DNA of 47,522 nucleotides, taken from positions 1 to 47,522 of the forward strand of contig NZ_BMOQ01000011.1 in the NCBI RefSeq assembly GCF_014647155.1. Direction: 5' to 3'. The DNA comes from Halarchaeum nitratireducens (GTDB lineage Archaea > Halobacteriota > Halobacteria > Halobacteriales > Halobacteriaceae). The notes beneath the pieces are model-generated. The model was not told where the DNA came from. It worked only from the letters and a program-made list of their open reading frames with translations, and ran no database searches. The translations under genes were made by a program, and so were the position numbers. Of this stretch, positions 14,700-44,111 are shown in pieces (positions within the stretch are counted from its first letter, which is position 1; every line of letters begins with the position of its first letter).

Positions 14700-15407
14700 T
14701 CACCTATCGGGGTCCGACGAATCCGTCGGGGCACCAGCTATCTCGTCAAGATCGGGAAGATCCATCTCGTCATGCACATCCGGGAAGAGGTACTCGAAGA
14801 ACGGATCGTGCTCCCGGCCGACGGCAAGCGCGGGTTTGAGCGCGTAGATGATCATCATCGCTTCCGTCTCGCGCACGTCGATGTCGCTGGCGACCATCCG
14901 CTGAGTCGTCTTCCCCGCGAAGTGGAGCCCGGCGCCGCGCAATGCAGCGATGAGCTTCCCGAGGCCGTACCGGTCCACGAAGTACTTGATGTCCTCATCG
15001 ACCTCCTGGAGCCCGAGGGCGTGGAGGGCGGTCGGCGTGATGACGATCGGGACGTACTGCTCGACGATGATGATCGGGTCGGCGGTCAGCTGCTGGGGGC
15101 GTGTCGAGTCGTCGCGGTCGACGAGGCCGAGATCGACCAGTCGGTCGACGTACTCGTAGGCCGTCGATTTCGAGAGATCGAGCGCCTCCATAGTTTCCGG
15201 TGGGGTGACCGGGCCCCAGTAGCAGATGTAGATGTAGACGCGGGCGAGTGCTGGGCGGTTGAGCAGTTCCACGACTGTTTCGAGCCGGGGCGCGTTCTCG
15301 GCCAGCGTCTCCGGCTCGAGCGTGTCTTCGGTGAGGATGTCGATCGGTGGCGGGTCCAGCGTGTCGATTCCACCATCTGGGCGAATGTGCTCGTGATCAG
15401 GAGCCAT
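14700..15407 (-). CDS. winged-helix regulator paired with PIN protein, copy 1
   Basis: 235-aa protein. Residues about 40-105 read as a winged helix (RPALARVYIYICY, TMEALDLSKSTAYEYVDRLVDLGLV), followed by a 90-residue helical domain (residues 130-210) that is also present in its paralogue at 30016-30615. The C-terminal tail is acidic. It precedes the PIN gene by 9 nt, and its start is next to an 11-bp near-perfect inverted repeat (15414-15441) that looks like an autoregulatory operator. It may silence the PIN operon; whether it also neutralises the PIN protein is unknown. Confidence 0.75.
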   Translation of the reverse strand: MAPDHEHIRPDGGIDTLDPPPIDILTEDTLEPETLAENAPRLETVVELLNRPALARVYIYICYWGPVTPPETMEALDLSKSTAYEYVDRLVDLGLVDRDDSTRPQQLTADPIIIVEQYVPIVITPTALHALGLQEVDEDIKYFVDRYGLGKLIAALRGAGLHFAGKTTQRMVASDIDVRETEAMMIIYALKPALAVGREHDPFFEYLFPDVHDEMDLPDLDEIAGAPTDSSDPDR

Positions 15408-18224: not shown

Positions 18225-18731
18225 CTACTTGTCCTCCAGGAGTACGACCGTCACATCCATCGGGCCGTGAGCGCCCGTCACGAGCGAGCCCATGTCCGCG
18301 GTTGCGCTCGGCCCCGTCGCGATGATGGACTGTCCGACGCCGTTCCGGATATCCTCGGCGAGCTGGTCGAACGTCGCGTCCATGTCTGGCAGCACGTCGC
18401 TGGCGGCGACGACGGCGACGTGTTCGTCCGCATAGAGACTCACCGGCTCCTCGCCGTCGGTACCGCCCTGGATGATCACCGAGCCGTAGTCGGCGATACC
18501 GTAGCCGGCAGCAGTGACGCCGGTCGCCGCGGCCTCGAGGTCCGCGATCGACGGATCGGTATCGACGCTGTCCGGCAGCGAGACGGTCTCGAAGGGGAGT
18601 GAGGTGCCGACCGTAGGTGCGTCGAGCAGGGGTGAAAGCGTCGACGCGAACTCGTCGGCCGTGGTTCGCACGAGTTCGACGCCGATCTCGTCGAGCGACG
18701 ACTCGAAGGTCGCAATTGCCTCAGCTGACAT
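18225..18731 (-). CDS. lutC: LUD-domain protein, LutC type
   Basis: 168-aa single LUD domain. Characteristic stretches are GIADYGSVIIQGG, the middle DEHVAVV strand and GPSATADMGSLVTGAHGP near the C-terminus. LutC works with LutA/LutB in iron-sulfur-dependent lactate oxidation. The ATG at 18731 was chosen because earlier in-frame ATGs run into the promoter region; the protein then begins MSAEAIATFE and matches the usual LutC length. It abuts the fused LutA/B gene with no gap, so the two are one transcription unit. Confidence 0.85.
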   Translation of the reverse strand: MSAEAIATFESSLDEIGVELVRTTADEFASTLSPLLDAPTVGTSLPFETVSLPDSVDTDPSIADLEAAATGVTAAGYGIADYGSVIIQGGTDGEEPVSLYADEHVAVVAASDVLPDMDATFDQLAEDIRNGVGQSIIATGPSATADMGSLVTGAHGPMDVTVVLLEDK

Positions 18732-18828
18732 GTTCCCCAATATTGAACCAACAGTTAATGGATGTTTCCTCTCCAGCCTAAACATCTCCTTTCTTTCGTT
18801 ATGAATATCCGCCGGCCGTATCTGCAGG

Positions 18829-18860
18829 TATATATCATATAGAAAGTAAATCATATATGG
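18829..18860. promoter_or_regulatory. AT-rich divergent promoter of the lactate genes
   Basis: An AT-rich patch in GC-rich surroundings between lutC and lctP. The 8-mer ATCATATA occurs twice (18834-18841 and 18850-18857), 16 bp apart. The second copy is 41-49 nt before the permease ATG and could be its TATA box; the pair could also be a regulator site. Confidence 0.45.
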
Positions 18861-18898
18861 CTGGTTGTTCGATGGACCAATAGTGGAGAGATCCAACC

Positions 18899-20611
18899 AT
18901 GCCTGATGTTCTCACACTAGCTCTCGTCGGCGTCGTCCCGATCGGCGTCGCGTTCGTACTGCTCGCTGGGTTCCGGTGGTCCGCCGCTCGCGCAATGGGT
19001 GTCGGGTGGCTGCTCGCGGCCGGAATCGGACTCACGTACTGGAGCATGGAGCCCACCTGGTTGGTAGCGTCGGCCGTCTACGGCGCGCTGCAGGCCGTCG
19101 ACATCATCCTCATCGTCTTCGGTGCGATCCTCCTGATGAACTACTTGGAGGGCAGTGGCGCTATTGCTACGATCAGGTGGTACTTCGGGCAGATCGAAGG
19201 AGACCGGCGCATCCAGGTGCTGCTCATCGGTCTCGGATTCATGACCATCATCGAAGGTGCAGCCGGGTTCGGGACACCGGGAGCACTCGCCGCACCACTG
19301 TTCATCGGCCTCGGATTCCCCCCATTGGCCGCTGCGGTGTTCGGGCTCTACTTCAACGCCCCGAACCCGCCGTTCGGTGCCGCCGGCACGCCTGTCATCG
19401 GCGGCACCGGTGCCGTCATCAACCCAGCGCTGTCCGGGTCGGTGAGTGTATCCGAGTTCCTCTCGATGGTCTCTGCGTGGACTGGCGTCATCACGGGACT
19501 GACGTACGTGTTCTGGGGACTGCTCGGCGTGTTCTTCCTGACGTACTGGTTCGGGAGCGGTGACGGTGAACGCAGCATTGGAGCCGCCATGCGTAGTACT
19601 CTCCCCATCGCGCCGTTCGCGCTCGTACTCGGCGTCGTCACTGGTGGCACACAGCTGGTAATCGCGTGGTTCGTCGGGCCTGCACTCCCCGATATCGCCA
19701 CGGGGTTCGTGGTGCTCGGCATCGGTCTCCTGCTCGCAAACAACGATATCCTCATCCCTGATGACCAGTGGGATTTCCCCGAGGAATCGACATGGAGCGA
19801 CACGTGGCTCGGCGGCCTCGATCTTGACGAGGTGTCCCGTGATCAACCCAAACAGGAGATGTCCGTGCTGTTGGCGTGGACACCGTATCTGCTCGTTGCG
19901 CTCGCACTGCTCGTCACGCGGTGGCCGGACCTCACCGTCGCCGGCGTCGCTGTCCTTGACTGGATCCAGAGTTTCTCCGTCGGTCTCGATTCGATCCTCG
20001 GTACTGAACTTGGATACACCCTTCAGTACCTCTATCTTCCCGGAACGATGCCGTTCATCCCCATCGCGATTCTCACTGGCTTCCTTCACAAGATGGACAC
20101 CACACAGATGGGGGCAGCGTGGCGACGGTCGATCCAGCAGATCGCTCCGGCCGCCCTCACGCTCATTATCGCCGTCTCGATGACGCAGATAATGATTCAG
20201 TCGCAGACGAACACCGCCGATCTCCTCGGCATGATGGAGGCCCTCAGCCGCGCGCTTGCGATGGGCGCCGGCGGTCTACTCCCGCTCATCTCGCCGTGGA
20301 TCGGCGCTATCGGCTCGTTTATGACGGGGAGCAACACGTCCTCGAACATCCTCTTCAGCGTACTCCAGTACAACGCCGCCGAGACGGTCGGCGTCTCCCG
20401 GGTGATCGCCGTCAGCCTGCAGAACGTCGGCGGCGGCCTCGGAAACATGGTCTCGGTGTTGAATGTGGCCGCTATCTGTGGTGTCGTTGGAATCACTGGG
20501 CGTGAAGGCGACCTCCTGCGGAAAGCGATCATCCCAATGGCGCTGTTCGCCGTATTCGCCGGCCTGTTCGGGATGCTACTGACGTACGTTCTGGTCCCCG
20601 GCCTGTTCTGA
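18899..20611 (+). CDS. lctP: L-lactate permease, LctP family
   Basis: 570-aa polytopic membrane protein with about 13 hydrophobic helices. The conserved LctP region with GAAGFGTPGALAAPLFIGLG and FNAPNPPFGAAGTPVIGG is present around residues 120-175, and the C-terminal GSFMTGSNTSSNILFS and NVGGGLGNM motifs are typical. It imports lactate (or related 2-hydroxy acids) with protons or sodium. Divergent from the lutC/lutAB unit across a 167-bp promoter region, so import and oxidation are probably induced together. A wHTH regulator follows on the opposite strand. Confidence 0.93.
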   Translation: MPDVLTLALVGVVPIGVAFVLLAGFRWSAARAMGVGWLLAAGIGLTYWSMEPTWLVASAVYGALQAVDIILIVFGAILLMNYLEGSGAIATIRWYFGQIEGDRRIQVLLIGLGFMTIIEGAAGFGTPGALAAPLFIGLGFPPLAAAVFGLYFNAPNPPFGAAGTPVIGGTGAVINPALSGSVSVSEFLSMVSAWTGVITGLTYVFWGLLGVFFLTYWFGSGDGERSIGAAMRSTLPIAPFALVLGVVTGGTQLVIAWFVGPALPDIATGFVVLGIGLLLANNDILIPDDQWDFPEESTWSDTWLGGLDLDEVSRDQPKQEMSVLLAWTPYLLVALALLVTRWPDLTVAGVAVLDWIQSFSVGLDSILGTELGYTLQYLYLPGTMPFIPIAILTGFLHKMDTTQMGAAWRRSIQQIAPAALTLIIAVSMTQIMIQSQTNTADLLGMMEALSRALAMGAGGLLPLISPWIGAIGSFMTGSNTSSNILFSVLQYNAAETVGVSRVIAVSLQNVGGGLGNMVSVLNVAAICGVVGITGREGDLLRKAIIPMALFAVFAGLFGMLLTYVLVPGLF

Positions 20612-21660: not shown

Positions 21661-22584
21661 CTACTCCACGACAGAAAGCAACGTGTCACGATGATTCCGG
21701 ACTGTCTCAACCGTCACCCCTGCCGCCGCCGCAGCGGCAGCTTGCGTCAACGGCGCATCGTGGGCACACGCCGCCATGTACAGGCAGGCGGCAGCGAATC
21801 CCGCTGGATGTACGCCAGTCGTGACGCCGGCGTCGACGGCCTGCGCAGCAAGCGTCTCCGCCCGACGTCGAACGACGTCGGTACAGCCGAGCTCGGAGGC
21901 GAGCCGTGGGACGAACTGTGTCGGACGTACTGGCGGCGTTGGGAGGCCCAGCTCCTCGTTGAGCACGGTGTAGGCGTTCTCGACACGATCCTGTGGAACC
22001 TGTGCCATCGGCGCCACGTCGGCGAGGAGCCACGATTGTCCGTTGCACCGACAGGCGCCGAAGACGCTCGCGGCGGCCATCGCCTCGATAGACCGACCTT
22101 TGAGGAGTCGTTCGTTCTGTGCCGTCCGGAACAGCTGGCACGCCTGGTCACGTACTGAATCCGCGAGCCCGAGTGCACTCGCGATCCGCCGGATCTCCGT
22201 GAGGCCGTGCCCGTGGTTGCGCTCCTGCTTTGATCGCCAGCGTCCCCGGGACTGCTCGCGACGCATCCGAGCAAGGCGCCGACGCTTCTGGCTCGAGGTA
22301 TCAGTATCTGTCGCGCCTCGTCCGGTACCGATCACCGTCGATAGTCCGCGGTCGTGCCGTGCTGGAGTGAGTGGTGCCCCTGTTCGCTTTGCCGTATCGT
22401 CGTCGTCGCCGTACCACTCCGGTCCGTGGTCGATCGACTGTTCGTCGATGACGAGTCCGCAATCTGCACACACCGTTTCGGCTGAATTCGTTCGTACCGG
22501 ACCCCCACACTCGGGACACGGCTCAGTTGAACCACGCTGGACATCTTCGTCGAACGCACGCTCGTAGGGTTCACTCGTCGTCAT
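21661..22584 (-). CDS. tfb: transcription initiation factor IIB-like protein (TFB-2)
   Basis: 307-aa TFB paralogue of the gene at 1606-2532, similar in length and sequence throughout. Zinc ribbon CPECGG...CADCG at about residues 24-43, the PLTPARHDRGLSTVIG reader/linker region, then two cyclin repeats ending in a helix-turn-helix (LTQAAAAAAAGVTVETVRNHR). The start MTTSEPYERAFDED aligns with TFB-1. It should direct RNA polymerase to a subset of promoters. A leader of the shared hairpin family precedes it, and repeat R2 lies on both sides. Confidence 0.93.
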   Translation of the reverse strand: MTTSEPYERAFDEDVQRGSTEPCPECGGPVRTNSAETVCADCGLVIDEQSIDHGPEWYGDDDDTAKRTGAPLTPARHDRGLSTVIGTGRGATDTDTSSQKRRRLARMRREQSRGRWRSKQERNHGHGLTEIRRIASALGLADSVRDQACQLFRTAQNERLLKGRSIEAMAAASVFGACRCNGQSWLLADVAPMAQVPQDRVENAYTVLNEELGLPTPPVRPTQFVPRLASELGCTDVVRRRAETLAAQAVDAGVTTGVHPAGFAAACLYMAACAHDAPLTQAAAAAAAGVTVETVRNHRDTLLSVVE

Positions 22585-22591
22585 CGGTCTC

Positions 22592-22650
22592 ACCTGATCG
22601 AGGTCACGCCAGTTCGGCGCGCCCCGCACCCCTCGTGGGGGAAACAAACC
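22592..22650 (-). promoter_or_regulatory. T-tract/tandem-hairpin leader, copy 6
   Basis: In gene sense: GTTTGTTTCCCCC, stem CCCC/GGGG (22637-22640 with 22629-22632), then GCGCC...GGCG (22616-22619 with 22607-22610), then ACCT/AGGT (22592-22604) and the ATG 7 nt later. The first part resembles the leader at 206-250. Confidence 0.5.
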
Positions 22651-22704
22651 TGGTCGCACACCCCTTGCCGCGGTTTGAGGGATAAATCTCAGACCCGATC
22701 TCGA

Positions 22705-22800
22705 GGTCGTGGCTGCGCGCGCAGCGACGGTAGGAGCGAGCACGGAGCGGAGGGTGGGGCGGCGGGGTCAGGGTCGGTCCGGCACACAGCAAAAAAAGAA
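22705..22800. repeat. GC-rich repeat R2, copy 3
   Basis: Close match to 12559-12655, in the same position just 3' of an OB-fold gene and including its T-tract. Confidence 0.75.
22791..22797 (-). terminator. T-tract terminator of OB-fold gene 2
   Basis: Seven T in gene sense, 18 nt past the stop codon, matching the first OB-fold gene. Confidence 0.5.
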
Positions 22801-22815
22801 GGCTGCTCCGACTGG

Positions 22816-23715
22816 CTATGCGTCCCACCACCGGCCGCGCTCCGGGAAGTGGATGATGCTCCACCCCGTCACAGCCACCGAGATCCGGCCCTCGTACCAG
22901 TTCGTGGCCGCTTCGTGGATGCGCACCGTCTCGCCTTCCTCGATCCACGGCGCGTCCGATGCTTTCCAGATCGTCACCTTCGTTTGTCCGCTCTCGTCCG
23001 CGATCAGCCCGACTTGCTGGATGGCCGGCGAATCACTGTCCCAGAGCGTCTCCACACGACCTTCGATCGTGACCGTGCCGCGATCGACGTCCTCCAGAGC
23101 GTCGATGGGCACGGTACCCCCCGGGGCCGTCTGTAACTCCTCGAACACCCGCACGACCGCACTCGTCATGTCTGTGCCGTCGACGACCGCTTCGGCCAGG
23201 CGTCGACTGACCGCCGCACGCGACCAGCCATCCACCCGCGTCGCGAGTCGGTCTGCCTCCGTGTTCACCGTCGCCAGTTCATCCTGGGAGAGCTCCGCTC
23301 GGGGATCATCCCGTTCGGGGTCGGCCATCGGGTCCACGCTCGCGGCCCGCTTCTGGAACTCCCGCCGGCGCTTCGTGCTCCCGTGCGCGGCGACCGCCCG
23401 CGTGCGCTGCTCCCGACCGTCCTGCGTTCCTAGCTCGGCCTGGGCACTGATGCGCTCCAGTTCGGCTTCCCGCGCCTGAATGCGCTCCTCCTGTTCGAGG
23501 GTGACGCCGTGAATCCGATCCTCGCTCGTGTCCGCGATCCCATCCGGGTGATTCGCATCGACCTTGGCCTGCGTCTCCTGCTCGACCGCGGCCTCGAACT
23601 CCGGCGTCTCGTCGACGACCGGGAAGCCGTCTTCATCGACTGCCTGTTCGCCCGCTTTCTCGAATGCCTGTTCATCGACCGAAACTACATCCGTGGTGAC
23701 GTTCTTACTTGACAT
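22816..23715 (-). CDS. OB-fold DNA-binding protein (RPA-like), copy 2
   Basis: 299-aa paralogue of 12662-13558, clearly similar over its whole length: acidic N-terminus, charged helix at about residues 75-130, helical middle, OB-fold in the last 95 residues (VTIEGRVETLWDS, DESGQTKVTIW, GRISVAVTGWSII). The ATG at 23715 aligns with MSSKNV of copy 1; an upstream in-frame ATG would read through the leader hairpins. Probably a single-strand DNA-binding protein of the replicon. Two copies with the same flanks suggest a duplicated or fused plasmid backbone. Confidence 0.8.
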   Translation of the reverse strand: MSSKNVTTDVVSVDEQAFEKAGEQAVDEDGFPVVDETPEFEAAVEQETQAKVDANHPDGIADTSEDRIHGVTLEQEERIQAREAELERISAQAELGTQDGREQRTRAVAAHGSTKRRREFQKRAASVDPMADPERDDPRAELSQDELATVNTEADRLATRVDGWSRAAVSRRLAEAVVDGTDMTSAVVRVFEELQTAPGGTVPIDALEDVDRGTVTIEGRVETLWDSDSPAIQQVGLIADESGQTKVTIWKASDAPWIEEGETVRIHEAATNWYEGRISVAVTGWSIIHFPERGRWWDA

Positions 23716-23716
23716 T

Positions 23717-23776
23717 GGTCTCAACCAGACCTGAAGGCGCTCACGCGCCCGACACCGCGATGCTACAACATCGCGG
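23717..23776 (-). promoter_or_regulatory. two-hairpin leader of OB-fold gene 2
   Basis: Stem CCGCGATG/CATCGCGG (23769-23776 with 23755-23762) and stem GGTCT/AGACC (23717-23721 with 23727-23731) ending 1 nt before the ATG. Compare GGAAC/GTTCC at copy 1: the sequence differs, the pairing is kept. Confidence 0.6.
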
Positions 23777-23808
23777 TTCTTCGACGACAACGCCCGACAG
23801 ACTCGTCT

Positions 23809-23860
23809 GCGCGCTCTCGCTCGCGCCTTCGCGAGCGCCCCTGGGCGCGAGCGAGAGCGC
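23809..23860. repeat. 17-bp perfect palindrome upstream of OB-fold gene 2
   Basis: Arms lie within 23809-23827 and at 23844-23860, the same sequence as at 13657-13712 with a slightly shorter loop. Confidence 0.75.
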
Positions 23861-23974
23861 CAAAGGAAGGTCACCTAACCAGCACCGCGCGCCGACCCGC
23901 CCGGAGCAAGCGTCCAGCGGAGAAAGCGTGGGGGGTGAGCAGCCACGCCGCGCAACCCCTCGCGCTTTCCCGCT

Positions 23975-29517: not shown

Positions 29518-30019
29518 CTACTCGAGCAGGTCCTGGACGAACCGGAAGCCATTCACGAACGTCACCGAGTCGCCGTACCCCTCACTTGCGAGGACGGTCT
29601 CGGCACCCTCTCCAGCGAGCGTATCCGTCGTGTAGATGTACGCTTGGTCTGCAGCCCCCTCGACAAACGCATGGGCAGCGACGCCTGCCAGCGCTGGATC
29701 GGCACGCCCGATCTCGTCGGCCGGCCGGTCATCCGCGTTCGCGATGTATCGCTGGACGCCATCCATCGTCCGCGACACCAGTCCCAGCGAGTAGTCCAGC
29801 GGCGCTGCCACACGCGCCCATCCCTCCTCGATCGCCGTGTCGATCGGCGGGGTGTCGACGCCGTCCACCTCAGTGGTCAACTCGTCGTAGACCCGCTCGG
29901 GGAAGACGAATGTGATGTCGTTCCGGCGGGCGAACGTGCGGACGGCCTGATACCGCCGGTTCGACGGCTGGCCCAGTCGCGACGAACAGGCTGGTATCCG
30001 CGATATGGATGGCGGTCAC
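29518..30019 (-). pseudogene. PIN-domain RNase, copy 2 (frameshifted)
   Basis: Homologue of 14160-14690. It starts at GTG 30019, overlapping the regulator stop (GTGA), and encodes MTAIHIADTSLFVATG, then shifts frame; removing one G of the pair at 29971-29972 restores GQPSNRRYQAVRTFARRND and joins the downstream frame, which runs to 29518 with the C-terminal acidic residues (TTDTLAGEGAE). So it is either a one-base insertion that inactivates the toxin or a sequencing error. The regulator next to it is intact. Confidence 0.75.
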
Positions 30020-30615
30020 GCGTCGTCGACGTCGTCCTCGTCGGCATCTTCGATATCCGCAACCGACGCGCCCGACGTCTCGATGTCGAAGTGCTCGAGG
30101 ACGACGGGCCGGAGTGCCTGCAGAATGATTTCGGCTGCGAGCGGCGAGATATCGAGATCCTGGGCCATCAGCCGGTGGGTGATCTCGCCCTGTTCGCGGT
30201 CGACCGCGTAGGTGAGCGCCGTCGCCAGCCCGGCGATTCCGTGCCGGTCGATGTACGTATCGATGTCGTCGTCGGTCGCCCGCCGGCCGACGGCGTCGAT
30301 GAGCGCCGGCGTGATCGTGTACTCGCGAGTGCCATCGGCCGTTGTCACGGTCAGGTCGATCTCCCGCGCAACGTACCGCCGGGGCTGTTCCTCGCTGGTA
30401 GCCTCAATGACGCCGGCGTCGACGAGCCGGTTGACGTAGGTGTAGGCTGTGCCCTGCGCGAGGTCGAGGGCGTCCATCAGTTCCTGGACGGTCGAGTCGC
30501 CCTCACGAGCGAGATACGAATACAGCTGGGCGAGGGCTGGTTCTTCGAGGAGGTCCGCGACCGAGAGGAAGTCGCGGATGACCTCGCCGTCGGCCCGGTT
30601 CGAGGTTCGGGACAT
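30016..30615 (-). CDS. winged-helix regulator paired with PIN protein, copy 2
   Basis: 199-aa paralogue of 14700-15407: winged helix with EPALAQLYSYLA, LMDALDLAQGTAYTYVNRLVDAGVI at about residues 27-75, then the same helical domain (DIDTYIDRHGIAGLATAL ... RLMAQDLDIS) and an acidic tail. Identity by eye is roughly 30 percent, so the two blocks are old paralogues. Its stop overlaps the start of the PIN pseudogene. A TATA box (30647-30654) and an inverted repeat over the expected transcription start suggest autorepression. Confidence 0.75.
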   Translation of the reverse strand: MSRTSNRADGEVIRDFLSVADLLEEPALAQLYSYLAREGDSTVQELMDALDLAQGTAYTYVNRLVDAGVIEATSEEQPRRYVAREIDLTVTTADGTREYTITPALIDAVGRRATDDDIDTYIDRHGIAGLATALTYAVDREQGEITHRLMAQDLDISPLAAEIILQALRPVVLEHFDIETSGASVADIEDADEDDVDDA

Positions 30616-33727: not shown

Positions 33728-35005
33728 TTACTCGGAGCTACTCCCGAACAATCCTTTTGCCCGGCCCCAAACGGACACGGTCTCGGACTCGTTATCGCCC
33801 TCACCAGCATCGTCAGAATGCGCGTCTTGGGGATCCCCTGACTCTCGGTCGCGACTTGCGAGTTCCTCGGTGAGTCGCTCGACTTCTGCTTCAAGGGTGT
33901 CGATTCGCTCGTTCTTCTCTGCCAGTGTCGCCTCGAGTTCGTCGACGCGTTCGGTCAGCAGCCGGTTCTTCTCAACCAAGTACGCGCGATTCCGCTCCGA
34001 GTCATCGGTATCACAGTCTGAGGAAGAGTCGGTAGCGGGGTCGTGGGCGTCCGCGGTGTCGTCGCCGGCGTCTGGCTCGTAGAACTCCGAGGTACTCGTG
34101 ATTGCTCGCTCGATGGTCTTCTCTCCATACGTTGATCCATCCGCGTAGTGGACCTCATCCCACTTCTCGCGAAGCAACCCGGACTCACGGAACAGGTGGT
34201 CCATCTGCGTCCGGTCGCCGCCGGTCCAGAACGCCAGCAGACAACACAGCGCCATATCTGCCTCGGAGTGGCTGTCGTAGCCGCCCGTGTCTCCGTTCCA
34301 GAGCCGCTCGAACTTCTCGCCGTTCGACGCATTCCGTGCTTTCTCGAGGAGTTCCTCATCCTCGAGGTCGACATTGACGTCGGCGTCGACCGTATCGGTC
34401 GCCGTTGACTGGTCGTCAGTGCCATCACGCTGCTCGGACTCGGAAGCTGTGGCACGCTCGGTATCCTGGACGTACTCACGGTGAATCGCTGTGAGCGCGT
34501 CCTGCCGGCGTGCTACACGATTCGGTGTCCGCTCTACGTGGTCGCCAGTGACGGTGAAAAAACGTGCCGTATCGTACAGTTCGACGCTCCCACGGCGGTT
34601 CCGACCCTCCGGGAGTTCCCCCTTGATGAGGACGTGGTAGCCGGTGCCGGACGGCGACACCTCCGTGTAGGAGTCCAACCGGTCGATGATGTCCCGCGCG
34701 GCATCGTCGACGTCCCCAGTCTCTGGATCGCGACAGTCGTCCAGGTCGACACCGACGATAGGGTCGTCGTCGGTGAATACGAACCCGACCCCGTCCGCGT
34801 GCTCTGTCTCGGTGTACTCGAGTGCCGTCTCGAACTCACACCAGGTATCGGATTCCGTCGACGACGCGAACTCGCCACTGCCTGGCGTCACCGGAATCTT
34901 CGTTGGCTTGCCGTCTCGCTCCTCTTCGCGCCAGCACACCCACTGCTCGCGTTCGCGCAACGCCTCCGGAATCGCCTCCGGCTCGTCGATGATAGGCTCA
35001 CTCAT
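33728..35005 (-). CDS. primase-polymerase (NrS-1-like) replication protein
   Basis: 425-aa protein. The N-terminal Prim-Pol domain has the acidic pair in GVDLDDC (D87, D89), SGTGYH (H124) and the RFFTVTG strand (148-154). Residues about 235-310 contain the small domain with LWNGDTGGYDSHSEADMALC and the FWTGGDRTQMDHLFRESGL helix found in NrS-1-type phage primases. A long coiled coil (345-400) and an acidic tail follow. No helicase domain is fused. It probably starts plasmid replication, and an iteron-like cluster lies directly upstream of it (35130-35306). ATG 35005 preferred over one 2 codons earlier. Confidence 0.85.
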   Translation of the reverse strand: MSEPIIDEPEAIPEALREREQWVCWREEERDGKPTKIPVTPGSGEFASSTESDTWCEFETALEYTETEHADGVGFVFTDDDPIVGVDLDDCRDPETGDVDDAARDIIDRLDSYTEVSPSGTGYHVLIKGELPEGRNRRGSVELYDTARFFTVTGDHVERTPNRVARRQDALTAIHREYVQDTERATASESEQRDGTDDQSTATDTVDADVNVDLEDEELLEKARNASNGEKFERLWNGDTGGYDSHSEADMALCCLLAFWTGGDRTQMDHLFRESGLLREKWDEVHYADGSTYGEKTIERAITSTSEFYEPDAGDDTADAHDPATDSSSDCDTDDSERNRAYLVEKNRLLTERVDELEATLAEKNERIDTLEAEVERLTEELASRDRESGDPQDAHSDDAGEGDNESETVSVWGRAKGLFGSSSE

Positions 35006-35129
35006 CCTCACATAGCACCTCGCATGGCTCTCACTGGCTGTGAGCCAGCACAGAATTCACGCTGCTCTGCGTCTCGATCCAATCCCTTGGTCCCAACGGG
35101 GATCCCCCGTTCTATCCTAGTTGGTTGTT

Positions 35130-35306
35130 GGGTGGAACACTCGCTAAAGCTGGTTGAAAATCGCTGGACGTGAGTGTGTTCCACCCATTTCGGTCGTTTC
35201 GTTGGTGTTCCACCCATTGAGTATTTGGGTGGAACATGCCGCCGTCGGGTGATTCTCGACCAGAGGGTCTGATCGGGTGGGATCATGATTCAGTTTGGGT
35301 GGAACA
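35130..35306. repeat. iteron-like cluster of five GGGTGGAACA boxes
   Basis: The 10-mer occurs at 35130-35139, 35227-35236 and 35297-35306 in one orientation and at 35177-35186 and 35206-35215 in the other. Boxes 3 and 4 form a palindrome with an 11-nt centre. The stretch 35006-35356 holds no gene, only these boxes, between the primase and the transfer operon. Candidate replication origin, transfer origin or operator of the primase. Confidence 0.65.
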
Positions 35307-35356
35307 GCTCCCGAGAATTTGCGATGATACCGGGAATTGAACCGTGTACCTCCATT

Positions 35357-38300
35357 TCATGGTTGTGAATCCTTCTCAGGGCGGAGGCGGACACCAGTGT
35401 AATGCCGGACGGGTTCCCCGTCGATTCGCTTCTTCGTGGAGTCCACCTCGATGTGGGTGTTGAGCTTCCGTGTGAACCAGCTCTTGTTCAGCGGACCCTC
35501 GATGTCATGAGCCTCTGCCCAGTCGTTGTAGAGGCCGAATACGTCATCTTTCGGCACGGCTCCATCTGCGTCTTCGATAAGATATTCGTCGACGAACGAT
35601 TCGAACGACGGTGGCGATGAGATTTCCTGCTGTTCCTCGACCGTGCTATCTGGTTGAGGAGTCTGGTCAGGTTCTTCAGTGGCCGCTGAACCAGATGATA
35701 CTGGGTGGAGCGACTCATCGGTGATTGCCGAGAGTGGTCGCTTCTCACCGTCTTCATACACGACCGATTCCGCCTCATCGTGAAGGATAACGATGCCGTA
35801 CGTCGAACGTGTGTAGTCTGGTACGGGGAGTTCGGCTTCGGGGACGAATGGCTTCTTGATACGCACCCAGTCGTCCTCAAACGCCGATTTCGTCTCGTAT
35901 ATCTGTTGCTCACCGTGCTCGTATACGACGTACTCGTCGGCAGCGTGGTCGTAGCTGTAGATGGCTGGCACACGATCCTTCGAGAGGTTTCCAAGCGACG
36001 GGAGGCGGATGTGTTCCGTCCCGCTGGTATCACGGAGGACGATCTCGTCGCCATCACGCTGCCAGATATTGTGAGTCCCGTTCTCGTTGTCGTTCGCCGG
36101 TCGCACGGCCGTCACTCCACCTTCTTCGGTCGCTCCACCGTTGAATGTGAGATTCGAGTCAGTCGTGTAGAACCGGGTCTCGTCATTCTGGAGGGTGCGA
36201 ACGGGTGGTGTGAGAATGCCGTCAACGCGCTTGGCCCACTCAGTTTCGTCGTTTCCAGGTTGAACGACAAACAGCGGGATATCCCCTGCTGCTTGGGCCT
36301 TCCGGAGGTTCGTGAGTACCTTTGCGGGATTCTCGGGCGTCGTCGTCTCGACCTCGATAGCGAATCGGTCGTCAACCTCGGGATGGCTCGCCCTCGCGTC
36401 AGGTTTCTCGCTGCCATCCTGGGCGAGGATTGAGACGGTGCAGCCGAGTTCGCTGAGTTCTTCTTCGATCTGGAGGAGTGCCGTATCGTGGTCATGTCCG
36501 CCGGCGGCTTGTACGCCCCCAGTCTCGGGTGTCGCGATGTCTTCGCCAGCGTCGGTCAATCGAATCCGTATTTTGTCTGCTTCGATATCGACGGTCGTAT
36601 CGAGATGGCGTGATCGCTCGCGGATATCTGCTAGTTCCTCATACGACGGTGGTTCGGCATCGACTTCTTCGAAGAGCCGCCTGAGTTCCTCGTCAACCGC
36701 TTCGACATCTACCCAGCCATTCTCTTCCCGACAGCCGTCTCGAAGCTGGCGGCTTCGAACCACCTTCGCTAGCGCGACGTCTAGGTCGTCGCTTTCGATG
36801 CTGAGTACCTCGTGTAATTCGGCAGGTGCGCTCGCTGTGGACACATCTGATTCCGCTGGCACCCCGTAGTCGTCACTGATGTCCTCGTGCATCGAGGCGA
36901 GCGTCTCAGTGAACTGTTCTTCTTCACGCTGTGTCAGCGGGTACTCACTCTCGGGATGGCCCGGCGGGATTTCGAGCGGTGTGAGACTGAACGGATACGG
37001 CCCGGTTTCTCCGAATGCTGGGCTCGGGACGCTGCCGATCCACTCGCCACGGGGTAACGAGCGAATCCGGTTGGCGAAATCGTCCGGGTCCATCTCCTCG
37101 TGGGCCATCGCCCGAGCCAGTTCTCGGTCGACGTTGATCTTGCTGACGAGTGAGGTCCCGATGTTGTTCAGGGCGTTCAGGTAGACTTTCCGCCCACCTT
37201 CAGCTTCCAGTTGCTCGGGGAACTGCATTGAGAGGCCCACTGAAAGCCGGAATCCTCGTCCTTTCTCGAGGAGGTCGTTCATGATATCGGAGACCACGAC
37301 TGAGGCCGCTTCGTCGACGAGAAGGTTCACGACGTAGTCATCGGAGTACTGGGTGAGGTCGCGCTTGCGGTCTTTGAGCGCGTCGTCGAGATTGGTGAGG
37401 ATCATGCCCGTCATAATCCGGGCGGCCTCGTCGCGAAGATCGCCGAGGTCGAACAGGATGACTTGGTTATCGTCGAGCACTTCTCGGAAGTCGAACTGGT
37501 TCTCGGTGTTGTTGAAGATGCGGCGCAGGTGGGGGTTCTGTGAGATGTAGTTGAGGCGGTGTGTGACCCCACCCATCACGTTGTCGAAGGTGGTCGAATC
37601 GTGTTGGAATTGCCGCCGGATCATGCGGGAGACCTCCTCGTCGCTCGATCGGGGTGCGTCTGCGAGATTCGGCTGTGGCGGGCCGGCTTCCCACAGCTGG
37701 TCGATGACGTGTTCGAGCTGTCGGTGGGCGAAGTAATCGGTTGACTCCCGGTACTGGCCGTTTTCACGGCCGTATTCCTCGTCGAACAGCGCGGTGATGA
37801 GCGTCTTGATGAGGGTTGGGGCGACCGTCGCCCGCTTGTATCGGTCCTCGTCCATGACGAGCTTCAGGATCTCTTCGTAGTGGTCGGCTTTTCGCCGGAC
37901 TGCATCCTCACGGCGGCGGCCACTCTCCAGCGAGGGTTCGAGATCGAAAAAGGAGAATCCGGGAAGCACGTCCGGGATCGGGAAGTGGACGACGTTCTCC
38001 TCGAGGTCGGTCATCCCGAATCGGCGCGCGTGGGCCCGCATGTAGTTCTGCGCCATCTCGTCGTTTTTCGGAAGGACGAGGATGGTCGGCCCCTCAGTGT
38101 TGTCGTACAACGAGAGCATATCGTTGAGGAGGGCTTTTGACTTGCCTGAGCCGGTGGTGCCGAATCGTCCGTAATGCATCGGCAGTAAGCGGGGCGGAAT
38201 GTGTGTCGGGACATCTTCGGGGTCGCCAGTGTCGTCGAGGGCATACCCGATAGCCATCCCGTCACGGAACTCGCTCATAATGTCCTGGTGAGGCCGGGCG

Positions 38301-39676
38301 AGCGGATTCCGACTCTGTTGTTCCGCACGCGTTCCACGTTCGCCTTCCACGGAGAGTTGGTCCGAAGAGGGAACGACGAGGAAGTTCGCGAGTTCGTGGC
38401 CGCTCAGGACGAACTCGGGTCGAGTCTTGCCACGGCCGGTCGTAAGCTCGCGGTCCAAAAGCCGTTGCAGCGCGGTTCGTGCGTACTGCTCTTTTTTGGC
38501 CTGCCGCAAGCCGTTGTCGCGCACCCGTTCGGCCTCCACTTCGTAGCACGGCCCATCGAGTGTATCGAAGACGGGGGCAAGTGACTCCAACCGCTCGTCG
38601 AGTTCCTCACGCTCGTCGTCACTGGATGGAACGCCAAGGGCGCGAATATTCGCGGTAAACGAGCGCTTCGCGTTTTTCGCCTCGATAGCTCCGACACGAT
38701 CTGCTTGTGTGTCACTCAACTCCTCCCGGCTTCGGCGGTCAGAGCCGTCGTCAAACTCCAAGAGTGGCCCCAAAAACCGCTGCGCCCAGGTATCCCGCCC
38801 CTCGATGATGTCTTCCGTACGAACTTCAGCATCGCTCTGCCAGCTCGCCCGTCGCTGGAAGACGACGTGGAACGCTAGTGGGGCACTCGCCTCCGTCAAG
38901 TCATCGACGAGCGACGCGAGCGCGCCACCAGGCTGGTCGACAGCATCAGGACTCTCGTCTACATCGTCGCCAGTGAACGGCGAGAGCGAAGACATCCAGT
39001 CCTGTTTCCGAGTCGCCGAGCCCTGCCACCGGACGCCGAGTGGGGAGACGGTATCAGTCGCTGGCCGGGCAAGTACTGTTCCCTCTGACGTCATCGTTGG
39101 TTTCGCCAGCGTTGTCACCGGCTCATCCCTGGGAATCGCATCTGGTGGGGCGAGTTCGAGGGCAGTATCCCCAATCTCGATGATGTGGTCGACAGATGGG
39201 TCAGCGACCGTCTCTCCATCCGCGGCTGATTCGGCTTCTACTAGCTCGGATTGATTGTTGTCGTCAGTCGCCAGCTCGTATTGCTCGTCAGGACCGAATT
39301 CGTACTGGAGGTCGTCCGACTCATACTGCTCGACGAATGTCTCCTGGTCGAATTCGACGGGCTGCACGAGTCGCGATGCAACGTCGACCTCGGTGCGTTC
39401 GATGTCGAACGTCTCGGGATAGATCGACCGGAGACGCTTCTTGAGAGTGTCCAGATGCTCGTTGGCCCCGTAGTAGAATTCGACGGGCTCATCTGCACCG
39501 TCACTGAGTGCGAGGAATTCGAACCGGGGCGGTGTCTCGCTATGTAATGGATTCAGTTTGTCGACCAGCCCTGTCGAGTCCGTTGCGGTCAGTTTGTGGA
39601 GGCTTTCCAGTGCTTGGGGCACACGCTCCGGCGTGAGTTGTTCGGATGTCGGCGTCACGCGAAGGTACTCACGCAT
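35357..39676 (-). CDS. VirD4/HerA-like conjugation ATPase with fused nuclease-like domain
   Basis: 1439-aa protein, last gene of the transfer operon. Walker A GTTGSGKS lies at residues 506-513 and Walker B VVNLLVDEAAS at about 782-792, with a coupling-protein/HerA core between about 490 and 900. The N-terminal 480 residues are specific to haloarchaeal relatives. Residues about 1060-1140 include PDARAS (D1093) and FAIEVETTT (E1108, E1110), which resemble a PD-(D/E)xK-like fold. The last 200 residues look like a wHTH/DNA-binding tail. ATG 39676 (or 39682) overlaps the upstream stop. It likely pumps DNA to the channel. Confidence 0.8.
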   Translation of the reverse strand: MREYLRVTPTSEQLTPERVPQALESLHKLTATDSTGLVDKLNPLHSETPPRFEFLALSDGADEPVEFYYGANEHLDTLKKRLRSIYPETFDIERTEVDVASRLVQPVEFDQETFVEQYESDDLQYEFGPDEQYELATDDNNQSELVEAESAADGETVADPSVDHIIEIGDTALELAPPDAIPRDEPVTTLAKPTMTSEGTVLARPATDTVSPLGVRWQGSATRKQDWMSSLSPFTGDDVDESPDAVDQPGGALASLVDDLTEASAPLAFHVVFQRRASWQSDAEVRTEDIIEGRDTWAQRFLGPLLEFDDGSDRRSREELSDTQADRVGAIEAKNAKRSFTANIRALGVPSSDDEREELDERLESLAPVFDTLDGPCYEVEAERVRDNGLRQAKKEQYARTALQRLLDRELTTGRGKTRPEFVLSGHELANFLVVPSSDQLSVEGERGTRAEQQSRNPLARPHQDIMSEFRDGMAIGYALDDTGDPEDVPTHIPPRLLPMHYGRFGTTGSGKSKALLNDMLSLYDNTEGPTILVLPKNDEMAQNYMRAHARRFGMTDLEENVVHFPIPDVLPGFSFFDLEPSLESGRRREDAVRRKADHYEEILKLVMDEDRYKRATVAPTLIKTLITALFDEEYGRENGQYRESTDYFAHRQLEHVIDQLWEAGPPQPNLADAPRSSDEEVSRMIRRQFQHDSTTFDNVMGGVTHRLNYISQNPHLRRIFNNTENQFDFREVLDDNQVILFDLGDLRDEAARIMTGMILTNLDDALKDRKRDLTQYSDDYVVNLLVDEAASVVVSDIMNDLLEKGRGFRLSVGLSMQFPEQLEAEGGRKVYLNALNNIGTSLVSKINVDRELARAMAHEEMDPDDFANRIRSLPRGEWIGSVPSPAFGETGPYPFSLTPLEIPPGHPESEYPLTQREEEQFTETLASMHEDISDDYGVPAESDVSTASAPAELHEVLSIESDDLDVALAKVVRSRQLRDGCREENGWVDVEAVDEELRRLFEEVDAEPPSYEELADIRERSRHLDTTVDIEADKIRIRLTDAGEDIATPETGGVQAAGGHDHDTALLQIEEELSELGCTVSILAQDGSEKPDARASHPEVDDRFAIEVETTTPENPAKVLTNLRKAQAAGDIPLFVVQPGNDETEWAKRVDGILTPPVRTLQNDETRFYTTDSNLTFNGGATEEGGVTAVRPANDNENGTHNIWQRDGDEIVLRDTSGTEHIRLPSLGNLSKDRVPAIYSYDHAADEYVVYEHGEQQIYETKSAFEDDWVRIKKPFVPEAELPVPDYTRSTYGIVILHDEAESVVYEDGEKRPLSAITDESLHPVSSGSAATEEPDQTPQPDSTVEEQQEISSPPSFESFVDEYLIEDADGAVPKDDVFGLYNDWAEAHDIEGPLNKSWFTRKLNTHIEVDSTKKRIDGEPVRHYTGVRLRPEKDSQP

Positions 39677-41879
39677 TTTCATCACCTTCCTCTGAGTCCC
39701 CATCGGTCTCCGCTGGCGTCCGCTCGGGTACAGTTTCTCCATTCCCGGTTGCTCGGGCTTCGAGGTCATCCTGGAATGTCTGGATATCCGGATTCACAGC
39801 GTCTTCACCAGCACCGGGGAGTGAGGTTCGCCGTTGCTCGGTCGGCTCGAAGTCGATGACCTGCTTCTCCTTGGCCATCGCTTTGACCTGGATGCCACGC
39901 CACTCGCCGTCGACGCCCACCAGCGCCTCGGAGAAGCCGGCGTCCTCGTTGCCGGGCACGGCATCTTGGACGAACCGCATCTGCGCGTAGTTCAGGCCGA
40001 ACTCGTCGGCCCACTCTTCGTCCATCCCGTCGAGGCGGTGGAACTGCTTGACCGCGCACTGGTCCAGAATAGCCTCGGATTCGGCGTGCTCGAAGAACTC
40101 GTCGACCGTCTGGGTGACCAACCGAATCGAGAGGTCGTGGTGCCGGTGGTGGCGGAACACCGTTTCGAGGAACGCCAGGCTCGCGGCGTCTTGCATAATG
40201 TAGCGTGCCTCGTCGATGTAGAACACGACCTCCTTGTCCGAGACTTTCGCGCGCTCGTACACCAGTGAGATGAGCAGCTGCATCGTCAGTGCCGTGCTGC
40301 TGTCGACGCTGCCCTCTTGCTGGGCGAGGTCGAGGTAGATGACCTTCTCGTCCCGAATGTCGAAGTCCGAGGATTGGCCGAGGTTGGCATGCCGACCATC
40401 CTCCTCGAAGGGGCGAAGCTGGTCGAGGAGCCACGTCGCGTCCTCCTTGATCTTCCCCGCCTCCTCGTTGGCCCGCACGACGAACTCCTCGGGCTCGTCG
40501 ACCATGTCCTCGAAGACGTCCATCATATCCCGAATTGTCGGGCTCGGGTTGTCGTGCGTGGAGATGTCGTCGGTGATGCCGTTGCGCTTGTACGCCCGCT
40601 TGAGGCCGAGTTCGAGCGTCGTCCGGCGGTCGCCAAGTGAGATGCCGCGGAGGGCGAAGAAGTTGGTGAGGAAGCTCATCGCGTCGTCGAGCTTCTCGTT
40701 GAACGGGCTCGCGTCCTCGCCCATCGCTCGCTGGACGTGCTCGGGTGTCTCCCGGATCTCCAAGGGGTTCAGCCCGAGCGTCCCACCAACAGTGATCCGC
40801 TTGGCGTCGAGTGCTTCCGCGACGCCGGCCCAGTTGTTCAGCGGCTCGAGGATGATGCCGATGCGGTCCTTGCTCTGCTCGATCGAGCGGATGAAGTTCT
40901 GCTTCGAGCTGAACGACTTCCCCGAGCCGGTGTCGCCGACGGTGAACATCGCGTACCCGTTGTCCCGGGCGAACGGGTCGATGACGACTGGGCTCTGGTT
41001 GTCCTTGTGAATCCCGAACTCGACGCCGCCCTCCTCGAGGATCGTCGCGTTGTGCGGCGAGGAGAGTAACGCCCCGACGGCGCCGCCGAGCGCGATGGAC
41101 TCGCGGCCGAACTCGTTGTCACCGATGGGTGCGGCGGACTGGAGGGCAAGGTCCTGCCGGCAGATCGCGGTCTTCGGCGTGAGGTTCGCTGGATCATCGC
41201 GGAGCGCACTCTTGACTTCCTGGACGGCGTCCCGGAGTTCCTCTTTCTTGTCGGCCCGGACGGTGATGAACATCCCCTGGTCGAAGACGTTCGCGCCATT
41301 CTCGACGGCCTTGTACGTCGCTGCGGCCTCGTTGGCGCGCTCCTGGAGGTAGGCGCTACGGACGCTCTGTTCGATATCGGCGTCGACCTGCAGGTCGTCC
41401 GCGATGTCCTGCAGTTCGTTCCGGGCCCGTTCCTGGTTCTTCGGCGTGATGTGGGCCGTCAAATCGAACTGGACGTCCGTCATCTCGAAGAGGTCGCTCA
41501 GATAGCCATCGCTGGGATAGTCGGCGTAGTCGGCGATGTACAGTGTCGTCGTCCACTGCTCGCCGACCTGGGCTGCTCGCGTCTCCCACTCGATGGCGGC
41601 CGGCGCAGTTACCGTCTTGTGCGACTCTGAGATATCGTCCAGGATCTGGCCTTCTGCGTTGCCTTCCTCCAGCGTCTCTTCGTCGAGGACGTCCGAGAAA
41701 TCGACTTCCTCCTCATCGTTGGTGCTGTGATATCGACCCCACAGAAGCTTGCCAGCGACGCCGAGGATGACGGCCAGAAGGACGTAGAGCGCTGCGCCTT
41801 CGGTCGACGTTGGATTCAGTAACCACTCGGCGACTTGATCGGTTGCCCTCCCACCGGCCTGAAGAAGGACGCTAAGCAT
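39669..41879 (-). CDS. virB4: VirB4-like type IV secretion ATPase
   Basis: 736-aa protein. An N-terminal membrane helix (about 30-48), a VirB4 N-terminal domain, then Walker A VGDTGSGKS (residues 314-322) and Walker B VVFYIDEARYIM near 545, with the arginine/QTVDEF sensor region afterwards. VirB4 ATPases power assembly of conjugative channels and are the most conserved part of them. It overlaps both neighbours by 8 bp (41872-41879 and 39669-39676), so the operon is translationally coupled. Confidence 0.92.
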   Translation of the reverse strand: MLSVLLQAGGRATDQVAEWLLNPTSTEGAALYVLLAVILGVAGKLLWGRYHSTNDEEEVDFSDVLDEETLEEGNAEGQILDDISESHKTVTAPAAIEWETRAAQVGEQWTTTLYIADYADYPSDGYLSDLFEMTDVQFDLTAHITPKNQERARNELQDIADDLQVDADIEQSVRSAYLQERANEAAATYKAVENGANVFDQGMFITVRADKKEELRDAVQEVKSALRDDPANLTPKTAICRQDLALQSAAPIGDNEFGRESIALGGAVGALLSSPHNATILEEGGVEFGIHKDNQSPVVIDPFARDNGYAMFTVGDTGSGKSFSSKQNFIRSIEQSKDRIGIILEPLNNWAGVAEALDAKRITVGGTLGLNPLEIRETPEHVQRAMGEDASPFNEKLDDAMSFLTNFFALRGISLGDRRTTLELGLKRAYKRNGITDDISTHDNPSPTIRDMMDVFEDMVDEPEEFVVRANEEAGKIKEDATWLLDQLRPFEEDGRHANLGQSSDFDIRDEKVIYLDLAQQEGSVDSSTALTMQLLISLVYERAKVSDKEVVFYIDEARYIMQDAASLAFLETVFRHHRHHDLSIRLVTQTVDEFFEHAESEAILDQCAVKQFHRLDGMDEEWADEFGLNYAQMRFVQDAVPGNEDAGFSEALVGVDGEWRGIQVKAMAKEKQVIDFEPTEQRRTSLPGAGEDAVNPDIQTFQDDLEARATGNGETVPERTPAETDGDSEEGDENA

Positions 41880-42995: not shown

Positions 42996-44111
42996 TTACT
43001 GGGTCCCTCGATCAAACTCCGTATCGCGTTTGTCATTCGATGTGTTCGCTGTCGGCTCGCCCGGGTCGTTCTCGGTTCTGCGGTACGACGGCTTACCGCT
43101 GCCCTGATCTCCATTGTCTCCACGGGCGGCTGCTTTCTGGGCGACAGCTTGTCCTGCGGCCGCTTTCGGCCCCCACCGGGCGGCAGTTGTCGCGACGCCA
43201 GCACCACCGACGTAGGCTCCAGCAGCGACACCGCCGACGAGTGCCGCCCCTTTCGTAGCACCGCCGACGACCTTGGCAGTCAGCGGAGTCGCATATTTGA
43301 ACGTCTTCCACGTGACATAGAGAGCAATCAGGGGTAGTGAGACTGCTACCAAGTACTTCAGAAACACGCTATTTGGAGCAATTGCATCTTGCGAGTAGAG
43401 CAAATCGTATCCTTTGAACACTACTGCTGCCGGGAGGGGAAGAACTGCGAGCGGGACGAACCGTTTGGTAAATCCCATCGCGATATCGGAGAGAACCGGG
43501 ATATTGCCGTAGCCAAGTGCGAACGCTATCGGCATTCCATACACGTAGACGTAGAGGAGAATCTCTCGAATGAAGTACAGTGCCTCCAGGGCCCACATCG
43601 AGAGACCGCCGAGAAGGGCGAATACGAGTGCAAGCCCGGGATTCGTTAGAGAGACTTCGAGGAAATTGACCATCGCATCACCTAGTGAGCTGAGACTTGG
43701 CATCAGAGCAATCGTGAATCCATCCACTATGTAGAGGCCCAGAATACTCACCCAGTACCAGCTGATAATAAGGAATGCTCCAACCCAGGCGGTCTTCTTC
43801 GTCCGTCTGGCTTCGTATGCACTCCCGAGATTGAAAATTCGGATCGTGTGCCGTCCTTGGACGCACATCAAAAGGAGGAGCAACGAAATCAGCATGATCT
43901 CACCGCCCACCAACGCATCTCGGATACCCTGCCAGGGAGCGTTGACCGGGTCGCCGAAGACGAATGCCCCCTCCGTCTCAGGCGTCGGCGTGCCAAACAT
44001 CTCCTCTGTCAGGGTCTCGTAGCCAGCCGTCAGCCCCTCCATGAACAGGCTAATGACCCAGTCGACGGCGTCTTTGAACCCCTCTAAGAAGACATCAATC
44101 AGGTCAACCAT
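42996..44111 (-). CDS. VirB6/TrbL-like polytopic membrane protein
   Basis: 371-aa protein with about seven membrane helices between residues 70 and 290, then an Ala/Gly-rich stretch and a hydrophilic, basic C-terminal tail. This layout (helices plus low-complexity Ala-rich tail) is that of VirB6/TrbL channel proteins. It starts 2 nt after the lipoprotein gene stop and ends 2 nt before the next start, within the transfer operon. It probably forms the DNA-transfer pore. Confidence 0.8.
   Translation of the reverse strand: MVDLIDVFLEGFKDAVDWVISLFMEGLTAGYETLTEEMFGTPTPETEGAFVFGDPVNAPWQGIRDALVGGEIMLISLLLLLMCVQGRHTIRIFNLGSAYEARRTKKTAWVGAFLIISWYWVSILGLYIVDGFTIALMPSLSSLGDAMVNFLEVSLTNPGLALVFALLGGLSMWALEALYFIREILLYVYVYGMPIAFALGYGNIPVLSDIAMGFTKRFVPLAVLPLPAAVVFKGYDLLYSQDAIAPNSVFLKYLVAVSLPLIALYVTWKTFKYATPLTAKVVGGATKGAALVGGVAAGAYVGGAGVATTAARWGPKAAAGQAVAQKAAARGDNGDQGSGKPSYRRTENDPGEPTANTSNDKRDTEFDRGTQ

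Follow-up and report, generated by a model that had tools for sequence, protein, structure and literature searches.

A repeat array behind the coupling protein gene of haloarchaeal plasmids as a candidate transfer site read by the coupling protein

Genes and repeats of the locus

The window, the whole stretch of Halarchaeum nitratireducens DNA that was analysed (47,522 nucleotides), contains a series of transfer genes on the minus strand. These genes encode a TrbL/VirB6-like membrane protein (42996..44111), a VirB4-like transfer ATPase (39669..41879) and a type IV coupling protein (T4CP; 35357..39769), a VirD4/TraD/TrwB-like ATPase of 1470 aa. The T4CP gene stops at 35357 and is separated by a gap of 345 bp from the start, at 35011, of a primase-like gene (33728..35011, minus strand) whose product has the NrS-1 polymerase HBD domain (PF22763). 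Both genes are on the minus strand, and the gap is thus situated within one co-oriented gene series.

Five exact copies of GGGTGGAACA are present in this gap, at 35130(+), 35177(-), 35206(-), 35227(+) and 35297(+), and no sixth exact copy occurs in the 47.5-kb window. An earlier note on this DNA had described five copies in both orientations within 177 bp (35130-35306), as found here. Its placement of the boxes between the primase and transfer genes was right as to the gap; more exactly, in the direction of transcription the last transfer gene ends before them and the primase gene begins after them. The true repeat unit is TGTTCCACCCA, as seen in 47 distinct sites of the same class (class A) in relatives. 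Box 1 (35297..35306, plus strand), which reads TGTTCCACCCA on the minus strand, is closest to the T4CP stop codon. Box 2 (35227..35236, plus strand) and box 3 (35206..35215, minus strand) form an inverted pair with 11-nt arms and 9 nt between them, and box 4 (35177..35186, minus strand) forms a 12-nt inverted repeat with box 5 (35130..35139, plus strand). A candidate degenerate sixth box, TGATCCCACCC (35275..35285, minus strand), has two differences from the core TGTTCCACCCA. Matches to GGGTGGAACA with one mismatch number 10 in the window versus 2.5 expected, and 10 or more were obtained in 0 of 100 shuffles, which rules out a chance repeat. A dispersed genome motif is also ruled out: the 3.14-Mb genome contains 10 exact copies, five of which form the array, and the other five are scattered over the genome.

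Box 5 adjoins a conserved core, CCAAC-TAGGATA..GGGG..CCCC-GTTGG (35093..35124, minus strand), which lies about 5 bp from this last box, between it and the primase gene, and contains a TATA-like stretch within inverted 5-bp arms. The core of the relatives reads CCAAC-TAGTATA..GGGG..CCCC-GTTGG, TAGGATA being the variant of the window. Of 50 distinct cores from relatives, 37 have perfectly complementary arms (36 with a 22-nt loop), and compensatory versions of the arms (CCGAC/GTCGG and ACGAC/GTCGT) are found. Some of the unpaired cores belong to class D, with the 3' arm largely lost, and a few are misplaced pattern matches. The core may act as a promoter, as a nick site or in both roles.

No relaxase of the families PF03432, PF08751 and PF01076 was found on three complete related plasmids or on the window contig. 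The orc1/cdc6 genes of these three plasmids are more than 30 kb from the boxes, and none was found on the window contig, which is possibly incomplete; the absence of Orc/Cdc6 from the window, already stated in the earlier note, agrees with this search. Contig C12 of the same genome carries a small HUH-type relaxase-like ORF (40240-40536; L226, L228) that matches PF03432 above the cut-off (E 9e-6); its neighbour is a ribbon-helix-helix-like ORF, and the same contig has Orc1/Cdc6. This ORF deserves attention because archaeal conjugative plasmids are said to be relaxase-free.

Several other genes were noted in the window and in related plasmids. A TFIIB-like gene (1606-2580 and 21661-22743) and an OB-fold gene (12662-13558 and 22816-23874) each occur twice in one 24-kb stretch. 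Between the duplicated genes lies a lactate utilisation cassette (16041-20611), which encodes a LUD-domain/ferredoxin-like protein and an L-lactate permease. Two TrmB-like regulators with DUF7437 (14700-15407 and 30016-30615) are each located near a PIN-like ORF, and related plasmids contain a TrmB-annotated gene after the primase gene. Genes annotated as xseA/xseB (exodeoxyribonuclease VII) head the transfer series at L140 (47693-48930), L142 (41595-42823) and L143 (11982-13219) and are an unexpected conserved neighbour of the archaeal conjugation genes in all three plasmids examined.

Repeat arrays and their classes among relatives

Homologues of the primase are present in 244 of the 391 genomes of the class, in 80 named contigs and in 131 plasmid records, 129 of these records being typed as non-mobilizable. 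Viral contigs contain only distant homologues, which align over part of the protein with 32-48% identity.

The same gap in about 100 haloarchaeal relatives contains 3-5 repeat copies, and the repeats fall into about 10 sequence classes. One 9-mer is present three or more times in 78 of 102 homologous gaps but in none of 149 coding control stretches; the remaining 24 gaps contain two exact 9-mer copies, several with diverged copies alongside. A search at related primase genes, proposed in the earlier note, recovers the arrays, but with a sequence that varies by class. The classes are A (GTTCCACCC), B (GTTACGGCA), b (GTTACGACA), C (TTCAGGGYAA or GTCAGGGGA), c (GTCC[AG]GGGTA), D (GTCCAYGCA), E (GTCCAGGCA) and F (GTCAGGGCA), plus single cases; TGTTCCACCC is also listed among the repeat classes of these gaps. 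DNA similarity to the gap of the window extends over the full length in five plasmids and ends at 35127-35131, the edge of box 5, in 12 others, because the arrays there belong to another sequence class. Within class A, the boxes keep a stable position and orientation relative to the core element. In three plasmids, surveyed over at least 50 kb each, the boxes are confined to this one place, apart from a single stray exact match in one plasmid.

No array was found at L013, L021, L062, L074, L106, L107, L113, L114 and L120, where another gene or an insertion lies upstream of the primase gene. At L021 and L062, a TnpB-like gene directly upstream of the primase gene occupies the place that the T4CP end and the boxes have in relatives, and the array is therefore absent. 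Primase genes located directly behind a VirB4-like gene are also without arrays. Conversely, arrays of CGCCTGTCCACC (L190) and GTCCGTCCA (L193) lie directly behind a T4CP gene, and no primase homologue was found in the retrieved DNA of these two loci. The presence of an array behind the T4CP gene is not universal: in the T4CP clade L174-L189, which has a tip of the RFX kind, no box array was found in the following gap. The deviant tip of this clade reads KPKNRFTRTLRDHV, and the next gene, about 34 bp downstream, encodes a protein of about 680 aa that is similar to a short part of the primase only.

Co-resident elements of one genome can share a box class, as in L086/L087 and L059/L080. Mutual exclusion of classes among co-resident elements is unsupported, given these same-class pairs and L084/L094 (same-strain loci, compared by eye).

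Domains of the coupling protein

The Pfam profiles TrwB_AAD_bind, TraG-D_C and T4SS-DNA_transf match 34 of 34, 26 and 21 T4CP members, respectively, and FtsK_SpoIIIE is not listed among the matches of these 34 members. The protein thus has, by its profiles, a VirD4/TrwB-type ATPase core encoded inside the transfer gene cluster; the model of the core (pLDDT 37) is unusable. The T4CP of the window shows a weak match to CedB.

Residues 1070-1470 of the T4CP of the window were modelled together with 50 relatives. The predicted structure contains a confident C-terminal winged helix of the RFX/Pox_D5 type (aa about 1389-1464; 35378..35605, minus strand), referred to below as the tip. The tip model aligns with the RFX1 DNA-binding domain on the X-box (1dp7) with Z 12.2 and rmsd 1.6 Å over 75 residues, and the same domain is the first Foldseek match (TM 0.87 by target length, E 8e-4). 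The Z score is 11.4 against 8zjr, about 5 against NrS-1 and about 7 against the African swine fever virus PrimPol. Pfam assigns Pox_D5 to the tip of 42 of the 51 members. The RFX half-site is GTNRCC, which resembles the box starts GTTCC, GTTAC and GTCCA.

A second predicted domain, located at aa about 1089-1186 (36212..36505, minus strand), is PD-(D/E)XK-like. The model of this nuclease-like domain matches archaeal Hjc (1gef, Z 6.8; 2wj0, Z 6.5) and VRR_NUC (Z 5.7), values that fall below the trust level of the tool, with local pLDDT of 60-70. Residues E1102, D1124, E1139 and E1141 are invariant in the 51 members and mostly retained in a distant outgroup clade; the last position of the motif E..D..(D/E)xK is E, where K is usual. 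The domain is, speculatively, a candidate nicking enzyme. Two T4CP bodies that are about 24% identical (L043 and L041) have the C-terminal half, composed of the nuclease-like domain and the tip, in common, which suggests module exchange at a larger scale.

Box class follows the coupling protein tip

The main fact to emerge from the sequences, which was absent from the earlier note, is that the boxes covary with the winged helix at the C-terminal end of the adjacent T4CP. The primase tree contained 106 rows, and its comparison with the tree of the T4CP tip (the last ~75 residues) was limited to the 94 shared loci. The box classes of these 94 loci require 27 changes on the primase tree. On the tip tree, where the minimum is 9, they require 10. 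Near-identical primases are accompanied by different boxes at L075/L076. The primase is ruled out as the reader of the boxes by the tree comparison together with such near-identical primases, and the primase binding sites suggested in the earlier note are unsupported, here as well as at L190 and L193. That note had regarded boxes unrelated to primase genes as evidence against its reading, and this is in part what was found: the arrays track the coupling protein.

The tips carry class signatures around W-F-x-R, namely NKSWFTRKL (A), DSKPWFGRRL and relatives (B), DSKRWFTRRL (b), TNASWFGRKL (C) and TNKGWFTRKL (D). Loci retrieved later conform: L195 has a b tip and four copies of GTTACGACA, and L201 and L202 combine B tips with GTTACGGCA. 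Class A boxes recur with a divergent tip in the pair L210/L211 (box A at L211). No single wing residue is claimed to determine box class, as the best columns separate the classes yet also track ancestry. The covariation suggests that the tip binds DNA in a sequence-specific manner.

Tip and boxes also move together. In four A/B pairs, the T4CP bodies are 84-97% identical (mostly at least 90%), a stretch of about 680 bp comprising the last ~150 T4CP residues and the boxes is at chance-level similarity, and the leader and primase gene beyond it are mostly 86-100% identical. In L043/L044, for example, the T4CP body shows 91-97% identity, the region from about -800 to -120 only 14-60%, and the leader and primase gene 86-100%; the pattern of exchange is alike in L047/L069, L079/L097 and L050/L045. 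The swapped stretch extends further on both sides in C/D pairs. On these comparisons, the T4CP tip and the boxes are exchanged between plasmids as one cassette, which in the window would comprise the T4CP linker, tip and boxes (approximately 35131..35811). No separate regulator gene was found inside the exchanged cassette.

Since tip and boxes are adjacent, linkage alone would hold them together in most exchanges; the evidence that goes further consists solely of the joint change of every copy in an array, the predicted fold of the tip and the positions at which the exchanged stretch begins and ends. It is very improbable that tip and boxes merely travel together as neighbours and the boxes bind a factor encoded elsewhere: the tip-box distance of only 50-220 bp and exchange in flanking conserved blocks that always moves both would suit this explanation, but all 3-5 copies change together and keep comparable layouts, a pattern that calls for a reader whose specificity has changed; the protein part linked to the boxes is a predicted DNA-binding fold, and a reader encoded elsewhere would be mismatched after every exchange.

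Proposed function of the array

The boxes are probably a cis-acting transfer site of the oriT or clt kind that the T4CP itself recognizes through its tip. This proposal is based on comparison, namely the covariation, the cassette exchange, the predicted fold of the tip and the single location of the array in the plasmid stretches examined. The arrays of L190 and L193, which adjoin a T4CP gene without a primase gene, also speak for the T4CP tip as the reader. From these comparisons we infer tip-box binding, T4CP loading and a function in transfer, as follows. Each box of the array would be a site recognized by the RFX-type winged helix that ends the neighbouring T4CP. The T4CP would bind the array via its tip and be loaded there, and its motor would feed the DNA into the VirB4/VirB6 channel. 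The co-oriented primase gene, on the far side of the array, would occupy the position expected of a leading-region gene. Speculatively, the PD-(D/E)XK-like domain would make the initiating cut, perhaps at the inverted-repeat core. A tentative extension, possible rather than probable, is a relaxosome in one polypeptide, in which the tip reads the boxes, the PD-(D/E)XK domain nicks or cuts the core and the motor exports the DNA; a relaxase would not be needed, and swaps of the tip with its address would change the DNA that is exported.

The strongest rival is an operator, although it is rather unlikely. The T4CP tip or another plasmid regulator would act on the boxes to control transcription of the primase or leading operon, with no role in transfer. 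The end of the array about 5 bp upstream of a conserved TATA-like element (CCAACTAGTATA) that precedes the primase gene fits this explanation, as does the stable layout of the class A boxes relative to the conserved element. However, transcriptional control would be an unusual role for a coupling ATPase, the arrays of L190 and L193 have no primase gene downstream, the array is not repeated at other promoters of the plasmid stretches examined, and the exchanged cassette has no separate regulator gene.

An iteron-type origin, at which the boxes would load the primase or replisome for vegetative or conjugative replication, is improbable. Repeats with an AT-containing element and a hairpin beside a primase-like gene look like such an origin, but box class is not matched to the primase, arrays occur without a primase gene, and the protein part that is swapped belongs to the T4CP. 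The orc1/cdc6 genes are located elsewhere on the related plasmids, far from the boxes, which makes the boxes unlikely as the plasmid replication origin; the origin of replication offered in the earlier note is weakened accordingly. Among the options of that note, the origin of transfer is the one now favoured, whereas binding by the primase is unsupported and an Orc-type replication origin is unlikely.

Comparison with known systems

Streptomyces TraB reads the clt repeats by a C-terminal winged helix, and clt is located near traB. The conjugation motor of the Streptomyces plasmids pSVH1 and pIJ101 recognizes short repeats of the cis-acting locus without a relaxase (PMC12857230, PMC3218068). 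The haloarchaeal locus is comparable in its short repeats, with a motor as the proposed reader and no relaxase of the three families searched. The T4CP also has a predicted C-terminal winged helix; it is of the RFX type and is not evidence of common descent. TraB is an FtsK/SpoIIIE-type motor, whereas the haloarchaeal motor is of the VirD4/TrwB kind; the element also encodes VirB4 and VirB6 homologues, its boxes occur in both orientations and its T4CP carries a PD-(D/E)XK-like domain. By analogy, the haloarchaeal element would work like TraB at clt but would stand outside that system on account of its VirD4-like motor and its secretion components.

The locus resembles the classical oriT of R388, F and RP4 in having repeats, which are protein-binding there, and an inverted repeat beside the transfer genes, with a leading-region gene opposite. 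It differs from them in that no relaxase was found among the three families searched and the proposed reader is within the T4CP, versus accessory proteins such as TraM.

The fold predicted for the T4CP tip is like that of RFX factors (1dp7) and of the Pox_D5 domains of viral and plasmid primases. Unlike in those proteins, the domain ends a transfer ATPase and differs among plasmids together with the adjacent repeats. Haloarchaeal Orc1/Cdc6 origins likewise have repeats beside a replication-related gene on haloarchaeal plasmids, but no orc1/cdc6 gene is present at the boxes described here.

VirB4-like and VirD4/CedB-like ATPases without a recognized relaxase are described for the archaeal conjugation systems of pT33-3, pNOB8 and Ced/Ted in the portions of the reports available (PMC9905601, PMC12857230). 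The present locus shares both kinds of ATPase, with no relaxase found among the three families searched. It differs in its repeat array matched to a T4CP tip, as no cis-acting site is reported for those systems in the same portions.

Significance

How archaeal conjugative elements mark their DNA for export is an open question, as no relaxase has been recognized on them (PMC9905601, PMC12857230). No paper devoted to a coupling protein of the RFX type or to an oriT of haloarchaea was found in a search of the open-access literature. The locus offers a candidate site, a candidate reader and about 10 natural specificity classes in culturable haloarchaea, and thereby a testable answer to how archaeal conjugation chooses its DNA without a known relaxase. 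If the proposal is true, a VirD4-type motor would be joined with site recognition of the Streptomyces TraB kind, and haloarchaea would gain a new typing scheme and a mobilisation tool.
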